DNA from: Candidatus Marithrix sp. Canyon 246
Lineage (GTDB): Bacteria; Pseudomonadota; Gammaproteobacteria; Beggiatoales; Beggiatoaceae
Assembly: GCF_001723685.1 (NCBI RefSeq)
Contig: NZ_MCBX01000002.1
Coordinates: forward strand, 124,001-188,000
Reading direction: 5' to 3'
DNA: 64,000 nt
Shown in pieces: positions 49,883-59,107 of this stretch. Numbering within the stretch: position 1 is the first letter of the stretch; each line of letters begins with the position of its first letter. Both the position numbers and the translations under genes were made by a program. The notes beneath the pieces are model-generated. The model was not told the origin of the DNA and did not search any database. It saw only the letters and a program-made list of their open reading frames with translations.

Positions 49883-50431
49883 ATGGGTTTATATCAATTT
49901 AAAATAATAATAATAAGCATAATCATATTATTATTACAATCGTCATTAAGCTACGCCAAACAACCTACCATACGTGAATATCAAATAAAAGCGGTCTTTT
50001 TATATAATTTTACATACTTTGTAAGATGGCCACCAAGCGTATTTGAAAGTTCTATATCTCCATTCAGGATTTGTGTTTTAGGTACAGATCCATTTCGTGG
50101 ATTGCTGAAATTAGCTGTAAAAAATGAAACAGTTGATGCACATAATGTTCAGATACAAGTTCATAGCACTGTTAAAAACACTAATTCATGCCACATCCTC
50201 TTTATAAGCCGCTCTGAAGTAAAAAATCTAAGAAAAATATTTAAATATCTCAAACAACGTGCCATTCTTACTGTTAGTGGTATTGAAAATTTTGCTCGTG
50301 ATGGTGGCATGATTCAGTTTGTGAATATGGGTAAAAATATCAGATTTTATATGAATCGTCGTGTTGCAATAAAAGCGAATGTGAGAATCAGTGCGAATTT
50401 ATTGTATATAGCCAGAAAAGTTTTTCAATAG
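49883..50431 (+). CDS. YfiR-like periplasmic protein (DUF4154)
   Basis: 182 residues with a signal peptide (IIIISIIILLLQSSLSYAKQ). The family core is clear: EYQIKAVFLYNFTYFVRWP near the N-terminus, FRICVLGTDPF, CHILFISRSE, ILTVSGIENFARDGGMIQFV and the C-terminal VRISANLLYIAR. In Pseudomonas YfiR is the periplasmic inhibitor of the diguanylate cyclase YfiN. In other bacteria the family often sits beside TonB receptors. Here a TonB-dependent receptor follows 57 bp later. Confidence 0.88.
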   Translation: MGLYQFKIIIISIIILLLQSSLSYAKQPTIREYQIKAVFLYNFTYFVRWPPSVFESSISPFRICVLGTDPFRGLLKLAVKNETVDAHNVQIQVHSTVKNTNSCHILFISRSEVKNLRKIFKYLKQRAILTVSGIENFARDGGMIQFVNMGKNIRFYMNRRVAIKANVRISANLLYIARKVFQ

Positions 50432-50487
50432 CCTATATTTTGCATCTATTATGAATAATATAACTAATTTTAATTAAAGAATGTAAA

Positions 50488-52671
50488 ATGAGGCAGAATA
50501 TGTATATAAGATTATTAATAATTTTAATAAATTTAACAATAATAAGCTTTCCAAGCTATGCAGAAGATGAAACAACAGAAGCAGATCGTGAAGCAATAGA
50601 ATTTTTAAAAGGCTTAAAACTAGAGGAATTAGTAGAAGTAGAAGTAACACTAGATAATGTTTTTAATGTATTTGATGGGCTAATAAAGGCAAGAAAGGTC
50701 ACAATTGCCACGGGTAAAGAACAAACAACAGATCGCGCCCCATCAGTTACTACTGTGATAACAGCACAAGATATTGAGGCAACTGGTGCAACTGATTTAG
50801 ATGAAGTATTAGAAATGGTGCCTGGCCTGCATGTGGCTCGAAATCGCGCTTACAATCCTATTTATATTATTAGAGGAATTTATTCAACTTTTAATCCACA
50901 AATCTTAATGCTAGTTAATGGTATTCCTATTAATAGATTGTATTTTGGTAATAAAGGTGCTATGTGGGCAGGTATGCCAGTAGCGAATATTGCTCGTATA
51001 GAAGTTATACGTGGACCGGGTTCTGCGGTTTTTGGGGCTAATGCTTTTGCTGGAGTTATTAATATTATTACTAAAACTAAAAAAGATATTGAAGGTACTG
51101 AAATAGGTACACGAATAGGCAGTTTTAATACTCAAGATGCCTATATATTACATGGTGGAACTTGGGCAGGTTTTGATATTGCATCTTCTTTAGAATACCG
51201 TAATACCGATGGACATAATGAAATTATTGATATAGATGCTCAAAGCCATTTTGATAATCAATTTGGTACCAATGCCTCTCTTGCGCCGGGAGGCGTAAAT
51301 ATGCAAAAACGTAATCTTGATGCACGATTAGATATTTCTAAAGAAAATTGGCAATTACGTAGTGGTTATCAAGGACGACGTAATATTGGAACTGGTGCAG
51401 GTACAGGAGAAGCATTAGATCCTATTGGTCATTTTACTGATGACCGTTTCAACGCTGATCTTACTTATCATAATAGTACATTTACTGAAAATTGGGATGT
51501 TACTGCACAACTCAGTTATTTTCAAACTAGATATAATACTAATAATCAAACTATTTTTCCGTCGGGTGCTTTTGGTGGTGCTTATCCAAATGGAATGATT
51601 ATTGATACATCTATCTCTGAACGTAACAACCGTCTAGATTTATCAGGATTTTATACTGGTTTTAAAAAACATACAGTTCGTTTAGGTATTGGCTATCATT
51701 ATGGTGAAATGTATAAAATTAAACATTATACCAATACTAATCCAACAACAGGGTTTCCGATTCAAAATCTAATGGATATTAGTAATACATCATACAGCTT
51801 TATTCCAGAAGGTTCTCGTAAAAATTGGCATGTATTCTTACAGGATGTTTGGAATTTAACTCCAAATTGGGAATGGACTACTGGTTTCAGGTATGATAAT
51901 TATTCTGATTTTAAATCAACTCTAAACCCTCGTTTCGCACTAAGTTGGCAACCTATTTCAAAATTTTCTACTAAACTTATGTATGCTAGTGCTTTTCGTG
52001 CCCCTACTTTTTCAGAGTTATATATTACTAGTAATCCTGTACACAAAGGTAATTTAAATCTTAATCCTGAAACAATTGATACTTGGGAATTGGCATTTAA
52101 CTATCATGTCAGAAATAATCTGCATCTAGCAACAAATTTATTTAGTTATAAATGGTCAGATGGCATTCGTTATGTACCCGGTGCATCAAAAGGTATTTTT
52201 ATAGCAGACAATGTTGGTATTCAAAAAGCTTATGGTTTAGAATTTGAAGCACGTTGGAAAATGACAAAAAAATCTAGTTTATTGGCTAATTATGCTTTTG
52301 TTAAAGCTAGCGATGAAAATAATAAGCATGATGCTGGTAATTATCCCCAGCATTCTGCTTATGTACGTAGTGATTGGCTACTAATGCCTAACTGGTTCCT
52401 TGATACCCAAATAAATTGGGTTTCCGAAAGACAAAGGGCTTTTGGAGATTCAAGGTCCCCTGTTGACGATTATACTACTGTAGATTTTACCTTACGCCGC
52501 AAAAATATTAAAAAAGGACATTGGAACTTTGCAGTCAGTGTTAGAAATCTATTTGATGTTGATGCCCGTGAACCAAGTCAGGGACCAGACTCCAATGGAG
52601 TTATTAACATACCATATGATTTGCCTTTGGCTGGACGACATTATTGGTTGGAATTGCGTTATCATTTTTAG
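50488..52671 (+). CDS. TonB-dependent outer-membrane receptor
   Basis: 727 residues with a signal peptide (ILINLTIISFPSYAEDE). The plug domain is complete (VTTVITAQDIEATGATDLDE, VLMLVNGIPIN-like DxNG region, IARIEVIRGPGSAVFGANAF), then a 22-strand barrel typical of the vitamin B12/colicin receptor class, ending in the C-terminal Phe (YWLELRYHF). It takes up a metal chelate or other large solute. It is co-directional with the YfiR-like gene and overlaps the 3' end of the NRPS gene by 68 bp, tail to tail. Confidence 0.9.
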   Translation: MRQNMYIRLLIILINLTIISFPSYAEDETTEADREAIEFLKGLKLEELVEVEVTLDNVFNVFDGLIKARKVTIATGKEQTTDRAPSVTTVITAQDIEATGATDLDEVLEMVPGLHVARNRAYNPIYIIRGIYSTFNPQILMLVNGIPINRLYFGNKGAMWAGMPVANIARIEVIRGPGSAVFGANAFAGVINIITKTKKDIEGTEIGTRIGSFNTQDAYILHGGTWAGFDIASSLEYRNTDGHNEIIDIDAQSHFDNQFGTNASLAPGGVNMQKRNLDARLDISKENWQLRSGYQGRRNIGTGAGTGEALDPIGHFTDDRFNADLTYHNSTFTENWDVTAQLSYFQTRYNTNNQTIFPSGAFGGAYPNGMIIDTSISERNNRLDLSGFYTGFKKHTVRLGIGYHYGEMYKIKHYTNTNPTTGFPIQNLMDISNTSYSFIPEGSRKNWHVFLQDVWNLTPNWEWTTGFRYDNYSDFKSTLNPRFALSWQPISKFSTKLMYASAFRAPTFSELYITSNPVHKGNLNLNPETIDTWELAFNYHVRNNLHLATNLFSYKWSDGIRYVPGASKGIFIADNVGIQKAYGLEFEARWKMTKKSSLLANYAFVKASDENNKHDAGNYPQHSAYVRSDWLLMPNWFLDTQINWVSERQRAFGDSRSPVDDYTTVDFTLRRKNIKKGHWNFAVSVRNLFDVDAREPSQGPDSNGVINIPYDLPLAGRHYWLELRYHF

Positions 52672-55600
52672 ACGGTGGCTGTATGAAACCAATCTTAATT
52701 AAGTAGGATAAGTATGTATCAATTAATTGCACATTCATTGGTGGACAAGAAATTGAGGTATTTGCTAATCCATTTAATGTGTTTTGACAATCAACGTCTG
52801 GTGTATTTTGATACCATTCCAATCTAGTAATATTTCCATTTACTTTTTCTGTTAGTAAAGGTAAAAAAGGAAGTAGAGGATTGTTATTATCATGAATATT
52901 AGAAATATTTTTTTCTATCCAGTCTTGATAGGGAATTTTTTTGAATTTATAACCATATGAACATATCATTTCAAAGAAATTAATCAAACTAATATTTTGA
53001 GAATGTAATGGTACTATATGAAAAGCTTTTCCTAGAGACTCTTGTTGTCTTGATAAATATACAATAGCTTTGCTAGCATAATCTACTGGAATGAATTCAT
53101 ATTTCTGATTAACTATATTTGGAATGTATCCTGTTTGTATGCATCTTTTAATCATCCTAAATATATAATGACTACTATAAGTATGACCAGTTTTACTATG
53201 ACCCATTATAAACCCAGTTCTAAATACAGTAATAGGTATTCCCCTTGATTTAGCACTCCATATCAATTGTTCGGCTACCCATTTAGTTTGAGTATAACCT
53301 ATATCTTCATTAAGATAGGTTTTATGATTATTAATATCATCTTTTTCTGTTATGACTTTCGGAAAATTTAAACATCCTACTAAACTAAAAACAGCTAGAG
53401 TAGATATATAATGTACTGGTTTTACTTTTTTACGACATGCTAATCTCAATACTTCTTGAGTACCAAGAACATTTGCTGCCTTAAGAACTGAATAAGGTTT
53501 AGCAAAATTAACCTGAGCGCCATTATGATAAATAATATCAATTTGTTCTGCTAATATTTCAAACTTTTCAAAAGAAAGCCCTATAAGGGGTTGCTCTAAA
53601 TCCCCACATATAGGTATTAATCTTGAGGAATGATAATAATTAATATTATATTTATCAAGGTTGTTGTGCAATCTTTTTAGAGCTTCACGCTCATTAACGG
53701 CACGAATAAGACAATATATTTTTGCATCAGTATTTTTAAGTAATTCATCAATCAAATAAGCACCAATAAATCCAGTGGTTCCTGTAATAAAAATATTACG
53801 TGGTTTTGTTACATTTTCTATAACAAATTGGTTTTTTGGATAGATTTTTGGATCTAAAACTGCTTCTGCATTAAAATCAATTACTTTTGTAAGATCATAA
53901 ATTCCATCTTGTTGTTGAAGTTTTTCAATTGTCTTAGCTAATTTTTCTATAGTGGGTTTTTCAAATAAGTATTTGATAGATAATTCGACAGATAAAGTTT
54001 TTTGTAGTTTTGTGATGACTTGAACGGCAACTAAAGAGTTTCCACCTATTTCAAAAAAATTATCATAAATACCAACTTTATCAAGTTGTAATAATTTTGC
54101 CCATATATCTGCAAGCAATGTTTCCAATGGGTTACGTGGTGCTACAAAGGATTCTTTCAAATTTAAATATAAATTATCAGAAGGTGAAAATAAGGAACTT
54201 TTATCCACTTTTCCATTTGGAAGTAATGGTAATGTTTCTTGAAAAACAAATACAGATGGTATCATATAATCAGGTAATTTTTCTTGTAGAAAATCCCGTA
54301 ATTCTTTTGTAGAGAGGGTATGTTGTATCTGAGTAGTAAAATAGGCTATTAATCTTTTATCACTATTTATATTACTCTGTGTTGTTATTACTGCTACCTC
54401 TTGTATTGCTGCATGTTGCTTCAATATAGCTTCAATTTCCCCTAATTCAATGCGAAAGCCACGAATTTTAACTTGGTTATCAATACGAGCTAAAAATTCC
54501 AGTTTACCATTTGGTAAATATCTAACTAAATCACCAGTTTTATATAAAATTTTTTGATTACCATTATCTTTATAATAAATAAAGCTGTTTGCTGTTAGTT
54601 CAGGGTTATTGATATAGCCACGCGCTACACTAATTCCGCTAATATATAATTCGCCTACCATACCTATAGGTATCTGTTGTAAATATTTATCTAATGCATA
54701 AGTTTCTGTATTAGATATAGGATGTCCTATTGGTAATAGATTGTTGTCATTGTATTTATTAGTAGTAACACATACTGTTGTTTCTGTAAGCCCATAAGCA
54801 TTGAAGAAGCTACGATTTCGTGCCCAAGGTTTTACTAATTCAATTTCACATTTATTTCCTCCAACAACAATTGTTTTCAAAGATGGTAATGCTTCAAAAG
54901 GTAAAGTAGCAAGTACTGATGGTAGTAAATTAACTATGCTAATATCTTGTTTACGTAAAGTTTGCAATAATGGAATTCCTGGCAACAAGTCATTCTTTTT
55001 AGCTAAACATAGAGTAGCACCAGATAACAATGCCATAACAAATTCTGATATAAAAACATCAAAACTAAAAGAAGCAAATTGAAGTACTCGACTATTTTGT
55101 TCTACATTAAATATGTTAATGAGTTCAATGGCTAAATTACACAATCCTCGGTGTTCAATCATAACCCCTTTGGGTTTTCCAGTTGAGCCAGATGTATAAA
55201 TAACATAGACTAAATTATCTGGTATTGTAGTATTTACTGGATTTTCTGTACTTTCTTGCGCGATTTTTTCCCAGTTGCTATCTAAGTTGATTTGTGATTG
55301 TGTTAGTAGTTTGTTTTCTAAATGTTTTTGGGTCAATAATATTTGTACTTTGGCATCTTCTAACATGAAGTTTAGGCGTTGTTCTGGATAAGTGGGATCC
55401 AAAGGTACATAGGCTCCACCAGCTTTGAGGATGCCTAATATGCCTATTATCATTTCTAATGAACGTTCTACGCAAATACCTACTAATGTTTCTGGTTTTA
55501 CGCCTCGTTTTCTTAGATAGTGTGCTAGTTGGTTGGCGCGTTGGTTTAGTTGTTGGTAAGTTAGTTGTTGGTCTTCAAAAACAAGGGCTATTGCTTCTGG

Positions 55601-58600
55601 TGTACGTTCAACCTGTTCTTCAAATAGTTGGTGAATACATTGTTTGTCTGGTAAAACTTGTGAGGTGTTATTCCATTCTCTGAATTGTTGTTGTTCTTGT
55701 TTTGTTAATATAGCTAAGTGTGAGATAGATTGTTGAGGGTTAGTTATTATGCTTTCTAATAGGGTTTGATAATGACCTATCATACGGATAATACGTGATT
55801 GATCAAATAGGTCAGTGTTGTATTCAATGCGACCAATAATACCTTCTGCTCTTTCATCTAATTCTATAGTTAAGTCAAATTTTGATGTAGCTGTATGAAT
55901 ATCAAGTTGACTTGGAATCCAACCAGAATCCAGATTCAAGATCGTCGGTTCCATAATAAAGGAGACTTGAAATAGTGGATTGGTTCCTAATTGACGGTCT
56001 GGTTGTAATTCTTTAACTAATTTTTCAAATGCTAAGTCTTCATGAGCATAAGCTTCTAAGGTAACTTCTCGTACCCGTTTAAGTAGTTGTTGAAAACTTG
56101 GTTGTTTTGATAAATCAGTACGTAAAACTAAGGTGTTGAGAAAAAATCCAAAAACGGATTCTAGTTCAGGTTTATTGCGACCAGCGGTTACTGTTCCTAC
56201 GGAAATGTCTTCTTGTCCAGTATAACGGTATAATAACACATTAAATGCTGCGAATAGGGTCATAAATAAGGTTACGCCCTCTTTTTTGCTTAGTTCTTTT
56301 AAGGATTCAGTCAATTGTTTGGGTAATGCCAAACATTCTCTCGCGCCATTATAGGTTTGTTGTGCTGTTCTTGAATGATCTATTGGTAGTTGTAGCTTTG
56401 GTAAATCTGCGAGTTGTTGTTTCCAGTATTTTATTTGATCTTCTAAATCTGATTGTTGTCGTTGCCAAATTGCATAGTCTGCGTATTGAATATAAGGTGT
56501 TTCAAGTTGAGAAATTGTGCCCTTAGAAAAGCTTTTATAAAGGCTTTCTAATTCTGGTAATAATATGTTATATATGGAAATACCATCTAAAATAATATGA
56601 TGCCAAGTCAGAAATAAGCGATAGTCTTGATCATCTAATTTTATTAGAGTGGCACGGAATAATGGACCTGTTAGCAAATCAAATGGTTTGATTGCTTCTT
56701 TGGTGGCAATTTTTAAACTTTCAGTTTTTCGTTCATTTGCTGGCAACTTAGTAAGATCTATTAGCGGCAATGTGAATGCAATGGATGGAGAAATAATCTG
56801 AACTGGTTTGCCTTCTACTGTTTTAAATGTGGTTCGGAAGGCTTCGTGACGCTGTATAATTTCTTTGATGCTTTGTTCTAAAATAGCGGCATTAATAGCT
56901 CCTCCTAGATGAATGGTAGTTGGCTCATTATAGACTGGCATAGATTCCGGTATTAGTTGTTGAACTAGCCATAATTGTTGTTGAGCAAAGGATAATGGAA
57001 TATTATCGTTTCGTGGTGCTGGTTTGATAGTGTTTTGTGAATTATGTTTGGTTTGAGTTTCTATCTGCTTAGATAATTCCGCAATTGTGGGTGTTTCAAA
57101 TAAACTGTATAAAGGCAAGTTAATTCCTAATTCATTATTAACGCGAGAAATAATACGAGTTGCTAATAATGAATTTCCACCTAGAGCTAAAAAATTGTCA
57201 TGAATACCAATGACTTTTTGTGGTAGGAATTCAGACCAAATTTGTATGAGTTTTTCTTGAATGAAAGAATATGTTTGGAATGATTCAGCGGCGGGTAATG
57301 CTTGGCGATCAATTTTTCCATTTGCTGTCAGTGGTAAACTATCAAGTATCACAAAATATGATGGTATCATGTAACTGGGTAATGACTTTTGTAAAAAGTC
57401 GCGTAGATGTTCTACTAAAATGTTTTGTAAAGTGTGAACTAAGCCTTTTTTTTCTAGTATATATTTTATGCTATTGCGTATTTGGTCTTGTTTCTTAGGT
57501 GTTAAGTCAAATTCAATTCCTGCTCGTTGCTTGTAAATCCATGCAATTTTGCCTTTTACCCATAAGTCGTTATCTGCTTCTGGTAGCCATAGTTGTAGGC
57601 GAAGTTGTTGACCGATTTTGTAATCATCAGGCATTCCTAATAAGTCAACTCCACATGGGGATATTTCTTCTGTTGTTAATTCTATTTGATGTTTATTATC
57701 AAATTCTACTATACATGCACTGTGTAGTGGTACTCGTTCTAAAGCTGATTGATATACAATATAAGCAACTATTTGTTTATCATTAAGTTTATCTTTTTGA
57801 GCAACAACCACTGTATCTTCTATACCGGGATGTTTGTGTAATTTAGCTTCAATTTCTTCTAATTCTATACGAAAACCACGAATTTTAACTTGATGATCAA
57901 TCCTGCCTAAAAATTCTAGTTTGCCATCTGAACAATAACGCGCTAAGTCACCAGTTTTATATAATCTTCCATTTGGAGTATTAATAAACTTTTCCCTAGT
58001 CAGTTCAGGACGATTGAGATAAGCTCTGGCTAAGCCAACACTGCCTATATAAAGTTCTCCTGCAACACCTATTTCTACTGGTTGCATTTGTTTATCTAAG
58101 ATATAGATTTGAGTATTGGCTATAGGAGTACCTATGGGAGGGGTTTGATTGTTGTTGGTACATTTTTCTATAGTGGCACATACTGTTGCTTCTGTTGGTC
58201 CATAAGCATTGTAAAAGTTACGACTAGGTGCCCAACGAGATATTTGTTTCGCTGAAGCAGTTTCTCCTCCAATAATAATAGTCTTTAAATTTGGTAATTG
58301 TTCAGGTGATAAGGTGTCTAACACCGAAGGTAATAAACTGATTGTAGTAATTGCATTATCACGTAATACTTGTAATAAAGGTGTACCGGGTAATAATTTT
58401 TGTTTTGTTTCTAAATATAGAGATGCGCCTGACACCAGAGCCATAATAATTTCTGATATAGATACATCAAAACTAATAGAAGCAAATTGGAGTACACGAT
58501 TCTCAGCTTTTATTTTGAAAGTTTTAATCAGTGCAGCAGCTAAATTACATAAGCCACGATGTTCAAGTAGTACGCCTTTTGGTTGACCAGTTGATCCTGA

Positions 58601-59107
58601 TGTATATATGCAGTAAGCTAAGTTGTCTGGCTTGGTTTGGTTTATTGGGTTTTTAGTAGTTTCTTGAAATATGTTGTGCCAATCTTTATCTATTGATACT
58701 ATTTTTGCTTTATTCTGTGGTAGGCTTGTGGATAATTGATCTTGAGTTACTATTACTGATATTTGAGAATCTTTTAGCATAAATGCTAAACGTTCTTTTG
58801 GATAAGATGGATCTAAAGGTAGATAAGCTCCACCAGCTTTGAGAATGCCTAGTAAGCCTACTATCATTTCTATTGAGCGTTCAATACAAATTCCTACTAA
58901 TATTTCTCGTCTTATGCCTAATTTTCTGAGATAATGGGCGAGTTGGTTGGCTTGATTGTTCAGTTGTCGATAAGTAAACTGTTTATCTTCAAAAACAATT
59001 GCAATTGCTTCAGGAGTGCGTTCTACTTGTTGTTCAAACAATTGGTGAATGCACATATTATCTGGATACGAACTGTAGGTATTATTCCATTCAACTGGTG
59101 GTATCAT
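52604..59107 (-). CDS. Dimodular non-ribosomal peptide synthetase, A-T-C-A-T-R, with PilZ-like insert
   Basis: 2167 residues. Domains: A1 (about 20-605) with YTSGSTGQPKG and the C-terminal LTANGKIDR; PilZ-like insert inside A1 (about 455-556); T1 (LGGNSL, Ser646); C (about 700-1135) with HHIILDG (836-842); A2 (about 1158-1640) with YTSGSTGKPKG; T2 (IGGNSL, Ser1691); and a terminal reductase R (about 1770-2140) with GTTGFIG and Y1938-x3-K1942. It would join two amino acids and release the dipeptide as an aldehyde, as in the AusA synthetase, which has the same A-T-C-A-T-R order. No condensation domain starts the chain, so A1 loads the first residue. Specificity codes read from A4/A5 (A1 D-V-S-S-I-G-A-V-C, A2 D-V-S-N-V-G-A-V-C) do not match a substrate that I can name. 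No phosphopantetheinyl transferase is in the window. Confidence 0.95.
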   Translation of the reverse strand: MIPPVEWNNTYSSYPDNMCIHQLFEQQVERTPEAIAIVFEDKQFTYRQLNNQANQLAHYLRKLGIRREILVGICIERSIEMIVGLLGILKAGGAYLPLDPSYPKERLAFMLKDSQISVIVTQDQLSTSLPQNKAKIVSIDKDWHNIFQETTKNPINQTKPDNLAYCIYTSGSTGQPKGVLLEHRGLCNLAAALIKTFKIKAENRVLQFASISFDVSISEIIMALVSGASLYLETKQKLLPGTPLLQVLRDNAITTISLLPSVLDTLSPEQLPNLKTIIIGGETASAKQISRWAPSRNFYNAYGPTEATVCATIEKCTNNNQTPPIGTPIANTQIYILDKQMQPVEIGVAGELYIGSVGLARAYLNRPELTREKFINTPNGRLYKTGDLARYCSDGKLEFLGRIDHQVKIRGFRIELEEIEAKLHKHPGIEDTVVVAQKDKLNDKQIVAYIVYQSALERVPLHSACIVEFDNKHQIELTTEEISPCGVDLLGMPDDYKIGQQLRLQLWLPEADNDLWVKGKIAWIYKQRAGIEFDLTPKKQDQIRNSIKYILEKKGLVHTLQNILVEHLRDFLQKSLPSYMIPSYFVILDSLPLTANGKIDRQALPAAESFQTYSFIQEKLIQIWSEFLPQKVIGIHDNFLALGGNSLLATRIISRVNNELGINLPLYSLFETPTIAELSKQIETQTKHNSQNTIKPAPRNDNIPLSFAQQQLWLVQQLIPESMPVYNEPTTIHLGGAINAAILEQSIKEIIQRHEAFRTTFKTVEGKPVQIISPSIAFTLPLIDLTKLPANERKTESLKIATKEAIKPFDLLTGPLFRATLIKLDDQDYRLFLTWHHIILDGISIYNILLPELESLYKSFSKGTISQLETPYIQYADYAIWQRQQSDLEDQIKYWKQQLADLPKLQLPIDHSRTAQQTYNGARECLALPKQLTESLKELSKKEGVTLFMTLFAAFNVLLYRYTGQEDISVGTVTAGRNKPELESVFGFFLNTLVLRTDLSKQPSFQQLLKRVREVTLEAYAHEDLAFEKLVKELQPDRQLGTNPLFQVSFIMEPTILNLDSGWIPSQLDIHTATSKFDLTIELDERAEGIIGRIEYNTDLFDQSRIIRMIGHYQTLLESIITNPQQSISHLAILTKQEQQQFREWNNTSQVLPDKQCIHQLFEEQVERTPEAIALVFEDQQLTYQQLNQRANQLAHYLRKRGVKPETLVGICVERSLEMIIGILGILKAGGAYVPLDPTYPEQRLNFMLEDAKVQILLTQKHLENKLLTQSQINLDSNWEKIAQESTENPVNTTIPDNLVYVIYTSGSTGKPKGVMIEHRGLCNLAIELINIFNVEQNSRVLQFASFSFDVFISEFVMALLSGATLCLAKKNDLLPGIPLLQTLRKQDISIVNLLPSVLATLPFEALPSLKTIVVGGNKCEIELVKPWARNRSFFNAYGLTETTVCVTTNKYNDNNLLPIGHPISNTETYALDKYLQQIPIGMVGELYISGISVARGYINNPELTANSFIYYKDNGNQKILYKTGDLVRYLPNGKLEFLARIDNQVKIRGFRIELGEIEAILKQHAAIQEVAVITTQSNINSDKRLIAYFTTQIQHTLSTKELRDFLQEKLPDYMIPSVFVFQETLPLLPNGKVDKSSLFSPSDNLYLNLKESFVAPRNPLETLLADIWAKLLQLDKVGIYDNFFEIGGNSLVAVQVITKLQKTLSVELSIKYLFEKPTIEKLAKTIEKLQQQDGIYDLTKVIDFNAEAVLDPKIYPKNQFVIENVTKPRNIFITGTTGFIGAYLIDELLKNTDAKIYCLIRAVNEREALKRLHNNLDKYNINYYHSSRLIPICGDLEQPLIGLSFEKFEILAEQIDIIYHNGAQVNFAKPYSVLKAANVLGTQEVLRLACRKKVKPVHYISTLAVFSLVGCLNFPKVITEKDDINNHKTYLNEDIGYTQTKWVAEQLIWSAKSRGIPITVFRTGFIMGHSKTGHTYSSHYIFRMIKRCIQTGYIPNIVNQKYEFIPVDYASKAIVYLSRQQESLGKAFHIVPLHSQNISLINFFEMICSYGYKFKKIPYQDWIEKNISNIHDNNNPLLPFLPLLTEKVNGNITRLEWYQNTPDVDCQNTLNGLANTSISCPPMNVQLIDTYLSYLIKIGFIQPPSKNDNAIPTNNVVQPKANHMVC
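57440..57745 (-). other. PilZ-like domain inserted in NRPS adenylation domain 1
   Basis: Residues 455-556 interrupt the A-domain between the core (QIVAYIVYQS) and the small C-terminal subdomain (EHLRDFLQKSLPSYMIPSYF). The insert begins with RVPLHSACIVEF, then IELTTEEISPCGVDLLG, then IGQQLRLQLWLPEADNDLWV, then KGKIAWIYKQRAGIEF, the order of strands in PilZ domains. The c-di-GMP motifs are only partly kept: RxxxR is R458-VPL-H462, and the (D/N)xSxxG is E481-I-S-P-C-G486. Confidence 0.65.

Follow-up and report, generated by a model that had tools for sequence, protein, structure and literature searches.

A PilZ domain within the lid of an adenylation domain in a nonribosomal peptide synthetase of Candidatus Marithrix, a possible ligand-responsive insert

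The stretch of DNA analysed here (the window, 64,000 nucleotides from Candidatus Marithrix sp. Canyon 246) encodes a nonribosomal peptide synthetase (NRPS) of 2167 amino acids, which ends in a thioester reductase. Its first adenylation (A) domain, A1, carries an insert in the C-terminal subdomain (Asub), the lid of the enzyme, and its second one, A2, is uninterrupted. The relevant features are the following, all of them on the minus strand of the window except the last entry, which refers to other genomes:

52604..59107, minus strand: NRPS gene, 2167 aa, with the layout A1(PilZ)-T-C-A2-T-R (open reading frame and Pfam; reductase TIGR01746, 332.6 bits)
57899..59095, minus strand: A1 core, motifs A1 to A7, residues 5-403
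57752..57898, minus strand: first part of the A1 Asub, residues 404-452, from motif A8 DHQVKIRGFRIE to VAYIVY
57458..57751, minus strand: PilZ insert, residues 453-550, a six-stranded barrel and a helix (Pfam match at 57470-57739)
57734..57736, minus strand: Arg458, the second Arg of RxxxR, the first being replaced by Ser454
57650..57667, minus strand: EISPCG, residues 481-486, at the [D/N]xSxxG position, with Asp changed to Glu in both Marithrix NRPS1 copies
57272..57457, minus strand: linker and second part of Asub, residues 551-612, with helix LRDFL, A9 (LPSYMIP) and A10 with Lys598
54202..55672, minus strand: A2, an uninterrupted A domain of the same protein and an internal control without the insert
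L075, L076, L077, L078 and L080 (genomes G020, G034, G061, G018 and G060): stand-alone Asub-PilZ proteins

The specificity code of A1, nine positions plus the invariant Lys, reads DVSLIGAVCK. The A-T-C-A-T-R layout of the protein resembles that of the aureusimine synthetase AusA (1294 bits, below the cut-off of 2500) and, by analogy with it, a dipeptide aldehyde or a pyrazinone is a possible product. Head-on to the NRPS gene, on the plus strand at 49883-52671, lie a YfiR/HmsC-like (DUF4154) gene and then a gene for a TonB-dependent receptor. YfiR proteins control diguanylate cyclases, and a possible link of this adjoining gene to cyclic-di-GMP (c-di-GMP) is suggested by that analogy.

PilZ domains are normally receptors for the bacterial signal molecule c-di-GMP. 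The extra residues of A1 had originally been predicted to resemble one, and this identity is borne out both by profile and by fold. The Pfam PilZ profile (PF07238, gathering cut-off 22.5 bits) matches residues 457-546 of the NRPS, at 28.3 bits when the whole protein is searched and at 32.8 bits when the Asub unit is taken alone, and it was found in all 16 insert-bearing Asub units tested. An AlphaFold model of Asub with the insert (mean pLDDT 89) contains a PilZ barrel of six strands and a C-terminal helix. Compared with solved structures, the modelled insert comes closest to the PilZ domain of MotI/DgrA (Z 14.2, rmsd 2.0, 96 aligned residues), with further matches to BcsA (Z 13.7), MrkH (Z 13.6), the PilZ domain of CesA (Z 13.4) and that of Alg44, while the remainder of the model matches the Asub of the synthetases TycB, GrsA and TioS with Z of about 15. 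The model of the full A1 is moderate (pLDDT 69), its core being poorly modelled in places and too weak to read contacts between PilZ and core. A sequence search of the PDB with the insert alone gave nothing beyond weak matches, to PilZ fimbrial proteins (E 0.13 to 0.24). The A1 insert is a true PilZ domain. Pfam, the fold and the lack of an interruption in A2 of the same protein rule out an ordinary A-domain loop or a methyltransferase remnant, and a chance profile match is ruled out because some 50 non-redundant homologues share conserved motifs.

The original prediction had located the insert where the A core joins the small subdomain. This proved wrong, as the insert lies within the small subdomain, between motifs A8 and A9: about 49 Asub residues, starting with D404 of motif A8, precede it, and A9 (at residue 576) and A10 with the catalytic Lys598 come after. 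The chain leaves Asub after the strand VAYIV and re-enters it at helix LRDFL. About 115 residues (453-567) stand where LgrA has about 7; A2 is without them. With an A core up to A8, an insert, and then A9 and A10, A1 is an interrupted adenylation domain whose A8-A9 slot holds a PilZ domain in place of a methyltransferase. No catalytic insert of the methyltransferase, oxidase or ketoreductase type was detected there: apart from PilZ and AMP-binding_C, the Asub-insert units gave no Pfam match.

The insert is not limited to this protein. The window genome encodes a second PilZ-interrupted NRPS, and these two synthetases contain its sole PilZ matches; the same holds for its sister genome. A profile of the insert matched in 17 of the 43 genomes of the family (the Beggiatoa group), and the insert recurred in 10 of the 386 genomes sampled from the cyanobacterial phylum. 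A scan of GTDB genomes located it in Parabeggiatoa, Albibeggiatoa, Thiomargarita and Marithrix, as well as in the filamentous cyanobacteria Oscillatoria, Laspinema, Microcoleus and an unclassified member of the Oscillatoriales; the scan used two narrow peptide patterns, whose matches fell solely in the Beggiatoa group and the cyanobacteria, and covered other phyla poorly. Among 398 genomes sampled from the window's own phylum, only weak matches were found outside the window genome, and no copy of the insert was found in plasmid records. In the class sample, tandem PilZ inserts occur in three genomes of other gammaproteobacterial families, two of them in condensation-domain synthetases (one with AMP-binding matches) and one in a stand-alone protein.

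Several variants of the arrangement were observed. A condensation-containing protein of genome G929 (L101:1315-5277, plus strand) combines two PilZ domains with a degenerate Asub and shows no AMP-binding match; its A core may have been lost or be very divergent. In genome G594, from the cyanobacterial phylum, the whole Asub-PilZ unit of one synthetase (L083:7652-15148, minus strand) is tandemly duplicated after one A core. In this protein PilZ belongs to the second A domain, while matches to methyltransferases fall after the first A core and before the carrier domain that comes next; its other A domain appears to be interrupted by a methyltransferase. In an 883-residue polyketide-synthase-like protein of genome G012 (L079:6394-9042, minus strand), a PilZ domain with complete RVTGR and NISGSG motifs comes after the ketosynthase N-terminal and acyltransferase matches.

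The known c-di-GMP contacts of PilZ domains are the motifs RxxxR and [D/N]xSxxG (PMC7288161). Both had been described as only partly kept in the window copy, correctly so: the first reads Ser454-x-x-x-Arg458, with the second Arg alone retained, and the second reads ExSxxG (E481-I-S483-P-C-G486). Across 51 non-redundant inserts, the Arg preceding the PilZ barrel, which is the second of RxxxR, is invariant (51/51), and [D/N]x[SA]xxG is retained in 47; few positions of the insert vary as little as this lone Arg and the residues of DxSxxG. In the single-PilZ inserts another residue, usually Leu (37/51), stands in for the first Arg of RxxxR, and the complete motif is present in 2 of the 51, as well as in the tandem relatives G913 and G941. 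In the tandem forms, the second PilZ domain has both motifs complete, namely RTNFR and DISRDG in the NRPS of G913, RKDFR and DFSCGG in G941, and RSGSR and DLSYGG in G518; the tandem PilZ domains of G913 and G941 are also seen by Pfam. These relatives from other gammaproteobacteria, with their complete motifs, lend credibility to a c-di-GMP link across the whole group. The window copy, judged by Ser454, Arg458 and Glu481, is among the more degenerate inserts. With the first Arg of RxxxR gone and Glu in place of the Asp, it is uncertain whether this copy binds c-di-GMP specifically, and its affinity may be weak or lost, or its ligand a different one.

Comparison of the two Marithrix genomes indicates that the insert is under purifying selection, with a dN/dS of 0.28 in the insert versus 0.24 in the core for NRPS1, and of 0.095 versus 0.22 for NRPS2. 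The history of the insert was followed in trees, which are quick builds with moderate support. The insert tree tracks the phylum, with 5 changes against a shuffled mean of 16.6 and none of 500 shuffles as low, and insert-bearing A cores also group by phylum, although less cleanly (8 changes versus 13.0). On the A-core tree, PilZ presence is placed at random (18 changes, against a shuffled mean of 18.0), and the PilZ-interrupted A domains have diverse specificity codes, covering many predicted specificities. The random spread on the one tree and the phylum tracking on the other suggest that a PilZ-bearing lid is retained as cores are swapped, or that the unit moves between cores. The scatter of cores and codes, together with the phylum-following insert tree, fits an add-on that is maintained in its own right better than a tailoring enzyme for a particular substrate, and in either case the PilZ unit is not tied to one amino acid. 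The case for substrate-linked tailoring is weakened by the varied codes and by the lack of pattern with which the insert is spread over the A-core tree.

The stand-alone proteins listed above, of about 200 residues each, consist of just the two Asub halves around PilZ, with the A10 lysine changed in the five genomes examined. They form one clade in the insert tree, and judging from these features the stand-alone protein is probably derived from a synthetase lid. Their genes adjoin rmlB, rmlA and rmlC, for dTDP-rhamnose, followed by rmlD in two cases. A lid without its enzyme that keeps PilZ, and does so beside genes for a polysaccharide sugar, argues that PilZ is the working part of the unit.

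The lid of an A domain makes a large rotation between adenylation and thiolation in every catalytic cycle and, in known PilZ proteins, the loop before the barrel acts as the ligand switch. We consider it moderately likely that the insert is a nucleotide-responsive allosteric domain acting on lid rotation, with c-di-GMP as the most likely ligand. PilZ would bind a cyclic dinucleotide, most likely c-di-GMP, at the loop joining the barrel to the Asub strand VAYIV. This loop runs continuous with the lid, which would couple the ligand switch to Asub. Binding would then change the packing of the barrel on Asub and favour or hinder lid rotation, resulting in activation or inhibition, and the signal would gate amino-acid loading of the A1 module, and hence the peptide, without transcription. 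A ligand-gated switch on a rotating subdomain agrees with the anatomy, with the conservation and with the pattern across the family; both binding and regulation are inferred.

As for the signal itself, the genome (G000; contigs C12, C22 and C24) encodes one canonical GGDEF protein, one degenerate GGDEF-EAL protein and one degenerate GGDEF protein. In favour of gating, it has the means to make c-di-GMP, in its one canonical GGDEF protein, and to degrade it, in one EAL protein, and it shows no PilZ hits outside the NRPSs. The presence of a single canonical GGDEF protein implies that c-di-GMP signalling is minimal, which counts against gating.

The PilZ domain of the type IV pilus acts through partner proteins. 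Rather unlikely, yet the strongest competitor, is accordingly a degenerate PilZ domain that binds no nucleotide and offers a docking or scaffolding surface, for example one that positions the synthetase or docks a tailoring partner. The loss of RxxxR in nearly all single inserts and the Glu for Asp in both Marithrix NRPS1 copies would agree with such a surface, as would XCC6012, which is without intact motifs and may act via a partner, as in the FimX-PilZ complex (PMC3131395). However, a pure docking role does not require the near-invariance of the lone Arg and DxSxxG, nor does it sit well with the complete motifs of the tandem relatives.

It is improbable that the insert is a neutral, functionless passenger spread by NRPS-module recombination at a tolerant site. 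The A8-A9 slot does accept foreign domains (PMC11355689), and the A cores around the insert are scrambled; against this stand the purifying selection on the insert, the conservation of its motif residues, its persistence across two phyla and a derived stand-alone gene that retains PilZ. The idea that the insert is a tailoring catalyst or what is left of a methyltransferase, by analogy with other interrupted A domains, has in its favour the A8-A9 slot shared with methyltransferase insertions but is largely refuted and barely conceivable, given that Pfam and fold identify PilZ, that the insert has no methyltransferase match, that methyltransferase and PilZ occupy different A domains of one cyanobacterial synthetase, and that PilZ is a small beta barrel not known to have a catalytic function.

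In the boldest reading, an NRPS family spanning two phyla would be post-translationally gated by a cyclic-dinucleotide receptor in the rotating A-domain lid, with a lid-derived offshoot acting in polysaccharide sugar synthesis; this broader proposal is tentative, and we place it slightly short of an even chance. NRPS regulation is thought of mainly as transcriptional, and a receptor in a lid that rotates in each catalytic cycle would be a direct allosteric input. Peptide synthesis would thereby be tied to the switch between motile and sessile life, with a second messenger directly gating a natural-product assembly line. For engineering, it would also supply a switch already in place at a site that is known to tolerate foreign domains. 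The confinement of PilZ matches to the NRPSs in the window genome makes this a sharp and testable question. No description of PilZ in an NRPS was found in the published literature, with key subscription papers outside the search, and a 2020 survey of interrupted A domains reportedly contains methyltransferase inserts only. Interrupted A domains and PilZ-fused enzymes are each known; PilZ as an A-domain insert is rated a new insert type.

Among known systems, the interrupted A domains TioS, KtzH, TioN and McyA carry a methyltransferase at A8-A9 or A2-A3. The one of TioS (5wmm) occupies the same A8-A9 slot within Asub as the PilZ insert. This slot is tolerant of foreign domains, and the inserts reviewed for interrupted A domains comprise methylation, oxidase and ketoreductase domains (PMC11355689). 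All inserts named in the cited sources are catalytic, whereas here the slot holds a ligand-receptor fold with no single substrate specificity. In BcsA and Alg44, PilZ is likewise fused to a biosynthetic enzyme, with a fold matching that of the insert (BcsA, CesA, Alg44), and in BcsA c-di-GMP relieves autoinhibition (PMC7288161). Those systems, however, concern polysaccharides, the membrane and complete c-di-GMP motifs, whereas here PilZ is built into a mobile lid, that of a peptide synthetase, and RxxxR is reduced. The YcgR-type proteins (MotI/DgrA, MrkH, VCA0042) are the nearest PilZ structures by fold; unlike the NRPS insert, they are effectors with a YcgR N-terminal domain and no enzyme. 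When VCA0042 binds its ligand, its N-terminal domain swings around it, and RxxxR provides contacts (PMC3131395). Finally, the dTDP-rhamnose setting of the stand-alone offshoot is similar to the known control of polysaccharides by PilZ domains.
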